In this document: one piece after another, positions 3,265 through 24,911 of the stretch | Numbering within the stretch: the stretch's first letter is position 1 | How the letters are laid out: every line of letters begins with the position of its first letter | Assembly (NCBI RefSeq): GCF_016888135.1 | Contig: NZ_JACSWB010000113.1 | Coordinates: forward strand, 1-64,000 | Direction of reading: 5' to 3' | Length of the DNA stretch: 64,000 bases | Source of the DNA: Leptolyngbya sp. CCY15150 | GTDB taxonomy: Bacteria; Cyanobacteriota; Cyanobacteriia; RECH01 | Notes under the pieces: model-generated | Told to the model about the DNA's origin: nothing | The model's input: only the letters and a program-made list of their open reading frames with translations | The model's database searches: none | Program-made: the position numbers and the translations under genes

Positions 3265-4521
3265 CTAGGATAAACCGCCATCCTCCCGCACAGTCCCTTT
3301 TTGATCGATGGCGATCGCTTGCTCTAGGGCAATCCGTTCCCGCGATCGCCTGGCATAGGGCTGTAGCTGGTCTATCGACTCCCCTGTCAAAATACTGAGG
3401 TTCTCCAAACTCATACCCCGCATCAACATTTCAATGCACCAGGTTTGCCGAGCTTGATCAAGACGGGGAGGTGCGCCATTGGGGGCTACCAGGCCATCCG
3501 TGAGCTGCTGCCACCAAGTTTGTAAGGCTGCCAGCGACCAGCGATCGCCCTCCTCCGTGATAAATAGACTAGGATGATCATCCTTGCGGCTCTTCAGCCA
3601 TTGGGTCAACGGGTTTCGGGTATGGGAACCATAGCGATGGCCCAAAATCCATCGATTGAGCGGCACCTGACGGATATCGTCCTGCATCACTTGAATCAGA
3701 TGCTGTTGGCTATCACTCACCTGATGCGATCGCTCCAAAGCGATCACTTCCCCTGGTCGTAGCCCCGCTCCAAATAGGATATAGGCTATGGCATAGTCTT
3801 GAGTCCCCTGTTTCTTGGCCCGCAACAACAGCGATCGCACTAGCCCGGGCGGCAAATCTACCACCACATCCCCTAAGGGCTGATGCAGCACCAGGGCAGA
3901 GGGCAAGGCGGACGAGGCATCGGTAGCCAACACACCGTTTAACACTAAGGTCGGCAGTTGATCCAAAAAGCGATCGCGATCGCCTCCCAGAAAACCATGG
4001 GTATCGCTACTCAATTCCAGCACCGCGTAGCCCAACACCAGCGTGTTCAAAAACTCCGCCACCGTTTCCAGCGGCACGGTCAAGGGCTGGGGATCGTGTG
4101 ACAGTGCTACTTGCAGATAGTCCTGGGTATAGCGATTCATCTGCTGAAGCTGCTGGCCCAGAGCTTGGCGAGTCTCTGGAGGATAGAGCCCCGACTCACC
4201 CACCAGCGATCGCACAAATTCGGGGACTGCTTCCAACTGCTGCAACCAGGCTGCACCATAGCTCCGCAACGCCTGAGACAAACTACTCGGCAGGGGCAAA
4301 AATGCCGGAGCGATCGCCTTGAAGGATTCTCCATGACTGGTTTCCAACAGCGCCAATAGCAAACCATGCTTGCTTCTAAAATGACGAAACAGGGTGACTT
4401 CATTCACCTCAGCCTGATCAGAAATTTCCCGCGTCGTGGTTTCGGTAATTCCTTGGTGAAGAAACAGGCTAAGAGCAGCCTGCATCAACCGTTCATGGGT
4501 AGAAGGTCGAGACTCTGACAT
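3265..4521 (-). CDS. TetR-family regulator fused to a degenerate tyrosine-recombinase domain
   Basis: This 418-residue protein has two parts. Residues 1-200 are a TetR/AcrR regulator: a helix-turn-helix at about 22-50 (TTREISDQAEVNEVTLFRHF) followed by an all-helical ligand domain. Residues 220-395 resemble the catalytic domain of tyrosine recombinases: GAGLRPGEVIALE around Arg255 matches box I, LDQARQTWC around Arg358 matches box II, and Tyr389 sits where the nucleophile would be. The box II His is Asp355 and the later His/Trp is Glu381, so strand-exchange activity is doubtful and the domain may only bind DNA or dimerise. The ATG at 4521 is chosen because the TetR domain starts there; a frame extension to 4692 would run over the operators. 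It is divergent from the desaturase at 4713, which it probably controls together with itself. Confidence 0.8.
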   Translation of the reverse strand: MSESRPSTHERLMQAALSLFLHQGITETTTREISDQAEVNEVTLFRHFRSKHGLLLALLETSHGESFKAIAPAFLPLPSSLSQALRSYGAAWLQQLEAVPEFVRSLVGESGLYPPETRQALGQQLQQMNRYTQDYLQVALSHDPQPLTVPLETVAEFLNTLVLGYAVLELSSDTHGFLGGDRDRFLDQLPTLVLNGVLATDASSALPSALVLHQPLGDVVVDLPPGLVRSLLLRAKKQGTQDYAIAYILFGAGLRPGEVIALERSHQVSDSQQHLIQVMQDDIRQVPLNRWILGHRYGSHTRNPLTQWLKSRKDDHPSLFITEEGDRWSLAALQTWWQQLTDGLVAPNGAPPRLDQARQTWCIEMLMRGMSLENLSILTGESIDQLQPYARRSRERIALEQAIAIDQKGTVREDGGLS

Positions 4522-4540
4522 GGGTCTTTCTAAAGAAAAT

Positions 4541-4602
4541 GTAAGTATTACTTGCAATTTTGCTGCGAGGGTTGTTATAGTCACAGTGTAAGCATCACTT
4601 GC
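4541..4602. promoter_or_regulatory. Twin TetR-type operators and desaturase promoter
   Basis: Two copies of one imperfect palindrome, GTAAGTATTACTTGC (4541-4555) and GTAAGCATCACTTGC (4588-4602), are spaced 47 bases apart, between the divergent TetR gene and desC. They fit GYAAGTNNTRCTTRC-type symmetry. A plausible sigma-70 promoter for desC, TTGCAA (4552-4557), 18 bases, TATAGT (4576-4581), lies between them, so the second copy would cover the transcription start. The nearer copy also sits 20 bases upstream of the TetR start codon, which fits autorepression. The promoter assignment is by eye. Confidence 0.65.
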
Positions 4603-4712
4603 ATCCACTGTATCGCATCTTCCCCAACCCTGGTCTCTCGCCAAGGGTTCACCGGAGCAGTCGAGCAAGGTTGAGCGCTTATGATCCTTCACCCTTGAGA
4701 TGTCAACTGACT

Positions 4713-5609
4713 ATGACAGCAAACCCTCAATCTGCCCCACGTCCTCTGTCTGAGAGCGATCGCTCTCCCCAGAGCGCACCCATGGATCCCTCATCGCTCC
4801 CGATCCATTGGGTCAGCATTTTCTTCTTCGGCACTGTCCATGCTGTGGCGCTCCTCGCACCGTGGTTCTTCTCTTGGTCTGCCCTAGGCGTGATGCTTGT
4901 TTTGCACTGGCTCTGCGCTAGCATCGGTATCTGCCTTGGCTACCATCGTCTGCTCACCCACCGCAGCTTCCGCGTTCCCAAGCCAGTGGAATACTTCTTT
5001 GCCACCATGGGGGCTTTGGCGGTTCAAGGCGGGCCAACGTTCTGGGTTGCTGGACATCGTCAGCATCACATGTACACCGAAGATGTAGATAAGGATCCCT
5101 ATTCAGCCCGTCGAGGTTTTTGGTGGAGCCATATCCTTTGGCTATTCTATGATCGCCCCAGCGTTTTTGATCGTAAAGAATTAGTTAAATATGTTCCCGA
5201 CCTAGCCCGCGATCGCTACTACCAATGGCTGGATCGCTACTTCCTGCTCCTGCAGGTGCCCCTAGGTGTGGCTCTCTATGCTCTAGGCGGTTGGTCGTTT
5301 GTCATCTACGGCATCGCGGTACGGTTAGTCCTCGTCTGGCACGCTACTTGGCTCATTAACTCGGCAACGCATAAGTGGGGCTACCGTCGATTTGACGTTA
5401 GCGATAATTCCCGGAACCTTTGGTGGGCAGCGCTGTTGACCTATGGCGAAGGCTGGCACAATAACCACCACGCCTACCCCAACGTTGCAAAGGCTGGCCT
5501 AACTTGGTGGGAAGTGGATCCAACCTGGTGGGTGATTCGCGGCTTGCAAATGATGGGGATTGCCAAGCGGGTGATTATGCCCCCAGATCTCCCAGCCAAA
5601 AAGGCATAG
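4713..5609 (+). CDS. desC: Acyl-lipid delta-9 desaturase (DesC type)
   Basis: The 298-residue membrane di-iron enzyme introduces the first double bond, at C9, into acyl chains of membrane lipids, using ferredoxin in cyanobacteria. The three histidine boxes are visible: HRLLTH (about residue 80), HRQHH (about 118) and HNNHH (about 257). Hydrophobic segments flank them, and the tail WEVDPTWWVIRGLQMMGIA is typical of cyanobacterial DesC. The ATG at 4713 is chosen over an in-frame ATG at 4599, which would overlap the second operator palindrome and add 38 residues unlike the family. The divergent TetR-fusion gene and paired operators suggest control by a local, perhaps lipid- or acyl-responsive, repressor rather than only by temperature. 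Other desaturases are not in the window. Confidence 0.9.
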   Translation: MTANPQSAPRPLSESDRSPQSAPMDPSSLPIHWVSIFFFGTVHAVALLAPWFFSWSALGVMLVLHWLCASIGICLGYHRLLTHRSFRVPKPVEYFFATMGALAVQGGPTFWVAGHRQHHMYTEDVDKDPYSARRGFWWSHILWLFYDRPSVFDRKELVKYVPDLARDRYYQWLDRYFLLLQVPLGVALYALGGWSFVIYGIAVRLVLVWHATWLINSATHKWGYRRFDVSDNSRNLWWAALLTYGEGWHNNHHAYPNVAKAGLTWWEVDPTWWVIRGLQMMGIAKRVIMPPDLPAKKA

Positions 5610-5635
5610 ATCATTACACTTGATATGAATCAACC

Positions 5636-5667
5636 AACTGGGCTATGTCAACCATGGCCCAGTTTTC
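5636..5667 (+). terminator. Rho-independent terminator after desC
   Basis: AACTGGGC (5636-5643) pairs perfectly with GCCCAGTT (5657-5664) across a 13-base loop, followed by TTTTC. It lies 27 bases after the desC stop codon on the same strand. Confidence 0.65.
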
Positions 5668-5855
5668 TATGGAGCGATCGCTCTAAGATGAGATTAATCT
5701 GGCATTGCATAGCAGTATGATTTTAGAGAATTGGGCATACCGTTCCAGACCCTATAGCTAAACATTTATCTTCTAGTGCAGCAACACCGAGATTCATCTT
5801 ATTCATCCTATACGTTCGCCTGAATCTTGCTCTCAAGCAGACAATAAGGTGGGGA

Positions 5856-8800
5856 CTACGTTGAGATGCGCTCTAAATCACGAGATCGTCGTTGTGAACC
5901 GTTCAACAATAAATGGGCACTAGGTACCGCATATAGCGCTAAGATCGTTGTACCGCCTAGACCTCCAGCGATACAGATTGCTAGGGGTGGCCAAAATCCG
6001 GTCGCGTCAAATAACAGCGGGACAAAACCTACCAAAGTCGTTAATGTCGTGGCAATGACATGGCGGGTAGAACGACCTACGACCTGAATCACCTCCTGTA
6101 CATCGCCATGGCGTGCTAGCGGATGATCTCGCAGAGCAGACAGCACGACAATCGAGTCATTAATCGCCAATCCTACAAGCCCTAGGGTACCCAGAATAGC
6201 TGTAAAACCAAAGGGATAGCCTGAAATGTACAGGGCACCTAGACCCAATCCGGCAGCACAGCCAGCGATCGCTAAGATAAGTCCTGCTGCCGCAAAGGAA
6301 TTAAAGGAAAGCACAAGGGTTGAAACCATCAGCACGAAAAGTACCCCCACCGTAGAGAGTAGGTTGGCGATCGAGGAACCCCGCGCATCTTCTTCCCCTC
6401 CTAACTCGATACGATAATCCGGCGGCAAGCTCACGTCACTCTGTTCCAAGCGATCTAGAAAGTCTGCAAGAACCTGAGAGGGCAACACCCCAGCCGTGAC
6501 ATAGGCCTGGATGGTATTCACCCGCTGTCCCTGGCGGCGAGCGATCGCAGGTTGATCGGCCATTAAACTCATCTGTCCTAAGGTGGAAAAAGGAACCCGT
6601 TGCTGTCCCACAATATCGAGAGAGTCTATGGTATCCAGACGCGATCGCTCCTCATCGCCCACCCGCACCCGCACGGGCATTTCTTCATTATCTTCAAGAA
6701 TAGAGCCACCCACGACTCCTTCTAAATAGGCATCTAGCTGTGCAGCAACCTCTGATTTCGTCAGCCCAATACGACGGGTCTCTTCCTCATCTAGGATTAG
6801 CCCAAGTTTAGGTAACGCTTCGCTGAGGGTCGCACGGGTATGACGCACCTGTGGCGTTTGGGTCAGAACTTCGCGGATCTGGTCTCCTAGAGATCGCAGG
6901 TGTTCTAAATCTGGGCCATAGAGTCGCAGTTCAATCGGTGCTTCAAAGGGAGGCCCTTGTTCCAATTGCCTAACCAAGACCTGAGCAGAAGGAAGAGTGG
7001 CATCCAAATCTTGCTGTAAATTTTGGATAAGATCTGCGTCGGCAGTTTGATAGACTTGCACCAACGCTTGAGCATAGTTTGGAGAGTCTTGCTGACCACC
7101 CAAGACATTGTAATAGAAGCGGGGAGCAGCCGCACCTAAAAACCAACTCACCTGCTGCACGTCAGGATAGGTTACGAGTTTCTTATAGGCTTGGTCAGCT
7201 ACGGCTTCTGTGGCTGCAAGCGAAGACTGAATCGGCAAACGCATCTCAATGTAAAACTGATCCCGTCCGGCAGGAGGAAAAAACTGCTGGGGCAAAAGAG
7301 GGGCAACGGCAAATCCGAGAATCGGCAGCACTAGACCCAGAAGAATACCTAAAACAGGACGGCGAAAGGTAAGCTTCAGCGATCTGTGATAGAGCTGAGC
7401 TAGCCAAGGCGAGTGCCAACCGATCTGCCACCAGGCTGTTCCTGAAGCACCCCCTAGATAATGTAGGCGTCCCATCAGGGATGGAATAACCGTCAACGCT
7501 AAGATTAATGAACTGGTTAATGCCAAAATCACCGTTGTGCCAATCGTGCCCGTGAACTCTCCTACACCCCCAGGTGCTAGGGCAATCGGCAAGAAAGCCA
7601 GGACTGTGGTTAGCGTAGATCCCAGCAACGGCACTGCCATGAACCGCACACTCTGTTCCACGGCTTGTGAGCCTTTTAGACCAGATTCCAGGCGAATTTT
7701 TACCTCATCTACCATGATGATAGCGTTATCGATTAACAGACCTAACGCAATAATCAGTCCCGTAATCGAAATTTGGTGTAGAGGAATTCTAAGCAGGTTC
7801 ATCATGCCAAACACCATAAGACAAGATAGCGGCAATGCCAGCCCCACAATTAAAGATGACTGCCAGCCCATGATCACCCAAGTTACAAGGATGACTAATC
7901 CTGCCCCAATCAATAAATTACCTAGAACAGTATTCAAGCGGGTTTCCACATAGCGACTTTGGTCTAAAATCACCTGCAGTTGAATGCCGCTGGGAAGATA
8001 GGCTTGAAACGTCTGTAATTTTGAACGAGCCATCACGGCCCATTCATCTAAACGTTCCTGGGATTCCACCTGAGCAGCGATCGCAATCGCAGGCTGCCCA
8101 TCCAACAGTGCCTTCTCAGGTAGAGGTTCACGAATGCTGCGCCTCACCTGAGCTATATCGCCCACATAGATAAACTGACCGTCAGTACCGAACTGAATAG
8201 GGGTACGGCGGATGCGTTCCAGAGAATCCAGCTCTCCCTGAAGCTCCAGCAATAGTTGATTCTCAAGACCACGCACCTGACCGGCAGATACCCGAGCATC
8301 ACTGCTCTGTAACTGTGCTGCCAGCATCTGTGGCGTGATGCCCAGTTGCCCCAACTGTACAGGATCCACCTGCACCAAGATCTCCTCCTCAGCCGCCCCA
8401 AACCGTTCCACCGTTTTTGTCCCTGGAATGCCGCGTAGATCCTCTTGAAGTGTTTCTGCTAAACGGCTCAAGACTCCGTAGTTTGGAGGCTCTGGCAAAT
8501 CCCACACCAGTCCTACAATCAAAGCATTAGCAGAAACATTGGCAACATCTACCTCTGGTTCCAAGGCTCCGGCCGGCAATAGAGCCATAGCATCCGAGGC
8601 TTTATCTCTCACCTGCGACCAAATTTCATCCACGTTCGCGATCGCCTCTTTGAGTTCCACCTCAATCACAGAAATGCCCAGACGAGAGGTCGATGTAATG
8701 GTGTCAATAGCGTCCAGTTCTCGCAGCTCTTGCTCAATGGGATCGGTTATCAACGTCTCGATCCGCTGCGGACTGGCTCCCGGAAAAAGGGTCGTTACTG

Positions 8801-24290: not shown

Positions 24291-24911
24291 TTAGAGGTCT
24301 TCAGGGGGGATAGGCTGTGGAGCCAGAATAAGACCGATCAAGCAGTCGATCAACAGATCTGGATCCATGGGGGCAATATGCTGGCCATGCATAATTCTCT
24401 GGGTCATGGCATAGCTGAGTAATGTGCCCGTAAAAATTCGGGCCACGGCGTCTGAATGAGCGATCGCTAAATCAGGATGGGAGTCAAAATAGTGCGTGAG
24501 ACTACGCCACACCTTTTGGGGTAGAGATTGAATGAAAAGCTGAGCTAAGGCCGGAAAACGACCTGATTCTCCAATGATCAGCCGCAAAAAGGCCACATAT
24601 TCATCATCTACCGCCAGCAGAGCTAAAAATTTCTGGGCAATCTGCCGCAAGACCTGAGCAGGGGAATCATCGAGGCAGATAGTGCCGAAGACTTGGTTGA
24701 AACGTTGGGCGGTGACCTGCTCAATCAACGCGGTGAACAGGCCTTCTTTATCGGCAAAATGCTTATAAATGGTGATCTTGGAGACTCCGGCCGCCGCCGC
24801 CACCCGATCCATGCTAGTGCCCTCATAGCCTTGGTGCAGAAAAATTTCTAGGGCACCCTGGAGAATTTGGGCTCGCTTTAACCCGGTGGTGGAATCTGGG
24901 GACGGCGTCAT
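24291..24911 (-). CDS. TetR/AcrR regulator of the adjacent ABC exporter
   Basis: The 206-residue protein has a typical TetR helix-turn-helix (AQILQGALEIFLHQGYEGTS, then DRVAAAAGVSKITIYKHFADKEGL) and a C-terminal ligand domain with FLRLIIGESGRFPALAQLF. That domain resembles regulators next to YbhGFSR-type exporters (CecR/YbiH group). It is divergent from the four-gene exporter at 25158-30702 across a perfect 19-base palindrome at 24962, so it probably represses both. The ATG at 24911 is chosen over an upstream GTG at 24935. Confidence 0.85.
   Translation of the reverse strand: MTPSPDSTTGLKRAQILQGALEIFLHQGYEGTSMDRVAAAAGVSKITIYKHFADKEGLFTALIEQVTAQRFNQVFGTICLDDSPAQVLRQIAQKFLALLAVDDEYVAFLRLIIGESGRFPALAQLFIQSLPQKVWRSLTHYFDSHPDLAIAHSDAVARIFTGTLLSYAMTQRIMHGQHIAPMDPDLLIDCLIGLILAPQPIPPEDL

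Follow-up and report, generated by a model that had tools for sequence, protein, structure and literature searches.

A TetR regulator fused to a degenerate tyrosine-recombinase catalytic fold beside a cyanobacterial desaturase gene

What does the catalytic fold of a tyrosine recombinase do inside a transcriptional regulator that adjoins a lipid desaturase gene? The question is raised by a reading frame of Leptolyngbya sp. CCY15150 in the window, by which we mean the whole 64,000-nucleotide stretch of DNA that was analysed. An earlier note on this DNA had read the frame as a TetR regulator joined to a degenerate tyrosine-recombinase catalytic domain, next to a desaturase and two operators, and our analysis supports this description.

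Domain layout and distribution of the fusion

The frame at 3265–4521 on the minus strand is single and unbroken, starts with an ATG at 4521, ends with a stop at 3265 and encodes a TetR-pseudo-recombinase fusion regulator of 418 amino acids (418 codons) with a conserved orthologue family. Its domains follow one another on the minus strand. The TetR helix-turn-helix domain (residues 12–58; 4348–4488) was recognized by the Pfam profile TetR_N (PF00440) with 48.6 bits, against a cut-off of 24, and was detected in 72 of 72 family members. It is followed by the TetR ligand/dimerisation domain (residues 60–198; 3928–4344), a weakly conserved linker with pLDDT below 50 (residues 199–217; 3871–3927) and the pseudo tyrosine-recombinase catalytic domain (residues 218–410; 3292–3870). 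Within the latter, the Pfam profile Phage_integrase (PF00589) matched residues 232–392 with 31.5 bits (cut-off 27.1), and 63 of the 72 family members matched it at E 0.01 or better. A phmmer comparison of the C-terminal half with solved structures gave the archaeal XerC-like recombinase 4a8e (E 8e-4). Both parts are hence present in one frame, as the earlier note had stated.

An AlphaFold2 model of the full-length protein, built from 72 family sequences, had a mean pLDDT of 86 with an interdomain break at residues 199–217, and its pTM of 0.52 does not define how the two domains are arranged relative to each other. The structure match of the recombinase domain rests on this full-length model, in which the pLDDT of the domain is mostly 90 or more. 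Residues 216–408 matched XerA (5hxy_D) with a Z of 20.4 and an rmsd of 3.7 over 175, and archaeal Xer (4a8e) with a Z of 18.1, an rmsd of 1.9 Å over 148 and 25% identity, in good agreement with the recombinase fold proposed for the C-terminal half. The match starts at residue 216; the N-terminal core-binding (SAM-like) domain of recombinases is absent from the fusion, and the TetR part and linker stand in its place. Residues 7–200 of the same model, for which Foldseek was also used, matched TetR regulators, including FadR-type proteins and QacR, with Z of about 15–16 over 180 residues and an all-helical ligand/dimerisation domain. FadR-like structures scored no better than the drug-binding QacR.

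When 386 genomes of the phylum and 39 relatives were searched at the protein level and the frames extracted, we obtained 48 fusions of full length, together with three TetR-only relatives. With a domain profile, 340 confirmed loci encoding the recombinase domain were found in GTDB species genomes, and 76 of the 80 loci kept from these were near-full-length fusions. The fusion thus recurs widely across cyanobacteria, in named genera from Leptolyngbya and Nostoc to Fischerella, Scytonema, Xenococcus and Gloeocapsopsis. An assembly error or chance frame join, against which the earlier note had cautioned, was rejected, since the same fusion occurs in dozens of independent genomes, single-contig ones included. 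Four members (L069, L070, L071 and L076) have longer chains of 449–528 amino acids, in L069–L071 through extra interdomain residues. The window also encodes an ordinary second TetR regulator, which has 30% identity to the TetR part, at 24345–24872 on the minus strand.

In 377 genomes searched with the domain profile, fusions scored at least 230 bits and anything else at most 38 bits, and this gap suggests that the domain exists only in the TetR fusion. No free-standing source of it scored above 38 bits in these genomes, and no donor was identified. A tree built on the TetR part, with several long or weak branches and weak support for many inner ones, places the TetR-only members within fusion-bearing branches. 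TetR-only proteins as the ancestral form are therefore not supported; these relatives more likely arose by loss of the recombinase domain. The best reading is that the fusion is old and conserved, and that its domain lost strand exchange early.

Loss of the active site and conservation of the domain

The catalytic set of a functional tyrosine recombinase, Arg-Lys-His-Arg-His/Trp-Tyr, is not preserved in the family alignments. The ArgI position is occupied by Ser in 95 of 118 members and by Arg in 7; the HxxR motif mostly reads E/A-x-x-Q, with Gln at ArgII in 81/118 and Arg in 33/118. The catalytic Lys and His-II are lost throughout the family and the Arg residues mostly so, and the nucleophile Tyr (Tyr389 in the window) is retained in 107/118. 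At the His/Trp-III position Trp (62/118) and Cys (27/118) prevail; a Trp there could serve an active recombinase, yet it restores no site because ArgI, Lys and His-II are gone. The window protein itself has ArgI, ArgII and Tyr and lacks the catalytic Lys and both His. Arg255 (box I), Arg358 (box II), Tyr389, Asp355 and Glu381 all lie where the earlier note had placed them, but the two arginines are atypical of the family and are found together only in the window protein, the two proteins of its congeners and a small number of other members. The deep-branching member L075 has Ser and Cys at the ArgI/ArgII-type positions. Present or recent activity as a site-specific recombinase under TetR control would agree with the widely kept Tyr and with the ArgI, ArgII and Tyr of the window; set against the absent Lys and His of the window, the substituted arginines of most members and the Ser and Cys of L075, this reading is exceedingly improbable, and we rejected it.

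The domain is nevertheless under constraint. Median pairwise identity was 61% for the recombinase domain, 57% for the TetR ligand domain and 77% for the helix-turn-helix. These values show, at the level of sequence, that the recombinase domain is under purifying selection and no less constrained than the ligand domain of the TetR part. Since the domain is this well conserved and its active site is lost, it must have some function other than strand exchange. The hairpin that bears the catalytic Lys in free-standing recombinases is without this Lys in the fusion family, and an added loop is about 9–10 residues longer than in most aligned free-standing recombinases. Alignments define a family-specific, near-invariant loop, W-I-x-G-x-R-Y-G-S-x-x-x-N-P, at residues 291–304 (3610–3651, minus strand), with G294, R296, Y297, G298, N303 and P304 as near-invariant residues.

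Operators, promoter and the neighbouring desaturase

The presumed regulated gene, at 4713–5609 on the plus strand, encodes a Delta9 fatty-acid desaturase of 298 amino acids, assigned from its frame, neighbourhood and a clade comparison as likely DesC2-type. A Delta9 desaturase adjoins the regulator in 51 of 51 neighbourhoods examined and is divergent in 50. The exception is L075 (G395 C1:3058545-3059702; locus 4500-6164), where both genes are on one strand and the desaturase follows the regulator. Divergence was clear in 78 of the 80 kept named loci; of the other two, L107 stops at a contig edge and L101 is broken. Genome G042 has another Delta9 gene with 52% identity; two frames with a DesA/DesB-type His box come after it, which identifies it as desC1 of the desCAB cluster and leaves the regulated gene as the second Delta9 gene, not DesC1. 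Two Delta9 genes were counted in a Nostoc-type genome, and two plus four in a Gloeobacter-like genome. These counts fit clade 1 of the Delta9 desaturases, which contains the sn-2-specific DesC2 (PMC2593844), and the regulated desaturase is probably DesC2-type. The genome of the window has a second close desaturase (G000:C278:130464-131288), 66% identical, without a linked operator pair.

The intergenic region shared by the two genes contains two 17-bp palindromes, TGYAAGTNNNACTTGCA, at 4540–4556 and 4587–4603, which confirms the two operators of the earlier note. Operator 1, TGTAAGTATTACTTGCA (4540–4556), is predicted to contain the −35 of the desaturase promoter, with which it overlaps through the predicted hexamer TTGCAA (4552–4557, plus strand), identified by its spacing to the −10. 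A predicted extended −10, TGT-TATAGT (4573–4581, plus strand), emerged from intergenic alignments, and the predicted operator 2, TGTAAGCATCACTTGCA (4587–4603), begins 5 bp after it. We found the operator pair in 123 intergenic regions, with a centre distance of 47 bp in 71, 46 bp in 31 and 48 bp in 5 (46–48 bp in 107). In 121/123 regions a TAnnnT −10, in most cases with TGn directly before it, is placed 17–18 bp from the −35. Operator 1 supplies TTGCA of the −35, with the −10 at 17 bp in 107/123, and operator 2 starts 5–6 bp past the −10 in 103/123. From this arrangement the palindromes are taken to be the operators of the TetR part, lying in the promoter of the neighbouring gene.

The operators are specific to this locus. 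In the genome of the window the operator pattern occurs only at these two sites (reversed control 0), and of 377 genomes 37 have the spaced pair, each of them exactly once (control 0). These 37 comprise 36 genomes with the fusion and G011 with a TetR-only relative; the pair was never found in the rest. No wider regulon was seen in 20 genomes, where single extra palindromes are scattered at no more than two per genome outside the locus. In L075 each operator is a perfect 14-of-14 palindrome, and the two are found past the end of the regulator, in front of the desaturase and not in front of the regulator. They stay with the desaturase despite the changed gene order, which ties the operators to the desaturase promoter. 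The recombinase-free G011 (L072) keeps both operators at 47 bp, and the TetR-only members of G177 and G332 (L074 and L073), which also lie beside a desaturase, have a single operator with the second site unrecognizable. L076 has one recognizable operator only.

Proposed function and comparison with known systems

We consider it probable, with some reserve, that the fusion is a dedicated local repressor of the desaturase, and likely of itself, in which an exapted dead recombinase domain serves assembly or signal. The TetR part would bind as dimers to the two palindromes, which cover the −35 and the stretch directly behind the −10, and the bound operators would occlude the divergent Delta9-desaturase promoter. 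Repression is the likeliest outcome because the operators sit over the −35 and the start site, and autorepression is probable, given that about 18 bp separate the end of operator 1 from the start codon of the regulator itself. An acyl-type signal in the TetR pocket may release the regulator. The catalytically dead domain could have been kept for gripping a neighbouring protomer, as recombinase catalytic domains also do, and its likeliest role would be to join two operator-bound dimers or to couple the signal to them. A more specific proposal, which we put forward as possible yet doubtful, is that the pseudo-recombinase bridges TetR dimers on the paired operators in a synapse-like manner, without recombination, after exaptation early in cyanobacterial history. 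Operator spacing is no independent evidence for such bridging, because promoter geometry alone would fix it, and the 47-bp pair of the recombinase-free G011 counts against an argument from spacing.

An opposite effect on the same promoter, with the fusion as activator and not repressor of the desaturase, appears quite improbable. TetR-family activators exist, and operator 1 shares sequence with the −35, a place at which some regulators also make contact with polymerase; the location of operator 2 over the start site, so close behind the −10 in most promoters, favours occlusion. The pseudo-recombinase might otherwise be a second DNA-binding module with a non-specific or shape-dependent grip beside or between the operators, and so increase affinity or bend the −10 region. 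Tyrosine-recombinase catalytic domains do bind DNA in solved complexes of the family, and the invariant or near-invariant basic residues R284, R296 and R312 are kept. This reading is nonetheless unlikely, as the domain is near neutral (22 K+R versus 21 D+E), most members no longer have the arginines that contact the scissile phosphate, the recombinase core-binding domain is missing, and the intergenic region has no third conserved motif beyond the two palindromes, the −10 and A-rich palindrome edges.

We regard as equally unlikely, taken by itself, a second sensor in which the old active-site cleft and the family loop bind a small molecule, a nucleotide or a protein and so tune repression. It would account for the extra loop and for the invariant N289, G294, N303, P304, W337, W361 and D406, several of them unlike active recombinases; these new invariant residues, together with purifying selection, favour a surface for a protein or a ligand. 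The earlier note had suggested that the added domain provides a second DNA-binding or multimerisation surface. A sequence-specific DNA reader is disfavoured by the near-neutral charge and the lack of a third motif. The multimerisation surface is the better of the two ideas, but promoter geometry explains the spacing that might have argued for it, and L072 keeps both operators.

The locus is a compact system of two genes, two operators and one promoter. Here a mobile-element enzyme fold has been domesticated in a one-component transcription factor and selected after the loss of catalysis, with a single well-defined target promoter. Membrane-lipid desaturation is central to cyanobacterial temperature acclimation. 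If bridging were true, a membrane-lipid gene would be switched through recombinase-style protein contacts with no recombination.

DesT and FabR are TetR-family fatty-acid regulators, and DesT targets a desaturase. With the TetR fatty-acid regulators FadR of Bacillus and Thermus, FasR and SaFadR the fusion has in common the TetR fold, the helix-turn-helix and palindromic operators at a lipid-gene promoter; in contrast to these proteins of about 190–230 amino acids without a second domain, it adds about 190 residues as a pseudo-recombinase domain. With the Xer recombinases (XerA 5hxy, archaeal Xer 4a8e and XerH 5jk0) it shares the fold of the catalytic domain, beginning at the first helix and extending to the C-terminal helix that bears the Tyr. 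It differs from them in the lack of the core-binding domain, Lys and His, the mostly replaced Arg, the extra conserved loop and the attached TetR part. In open-access papers on the fusion and its neighbourhood, we found no description of a TetR-recombinase fusion or of a specific repressor of this desaturase, and the passages that a term search found in a 2022 review of domesticated mobile-element proteins treat transcription factors and recombinases with no such fusion (PMC8987985). XerC of Pseudomonas aeruginosa has a second function in pyocin gene control, apart from recombination (PMC9431673). It is likewise a tyrosine recombinase with a regulatory function; however, it is intact, active as an enzyme and not attached to a TetR domain, and its target genes and mechanism are unrelated to those of the fusion. 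TetR circuits on lipid genes and a regulatory tyrosine recombinase are hence already known, and what is unusual here is an exapted recombinase domain in an ordinary TetR circuit.
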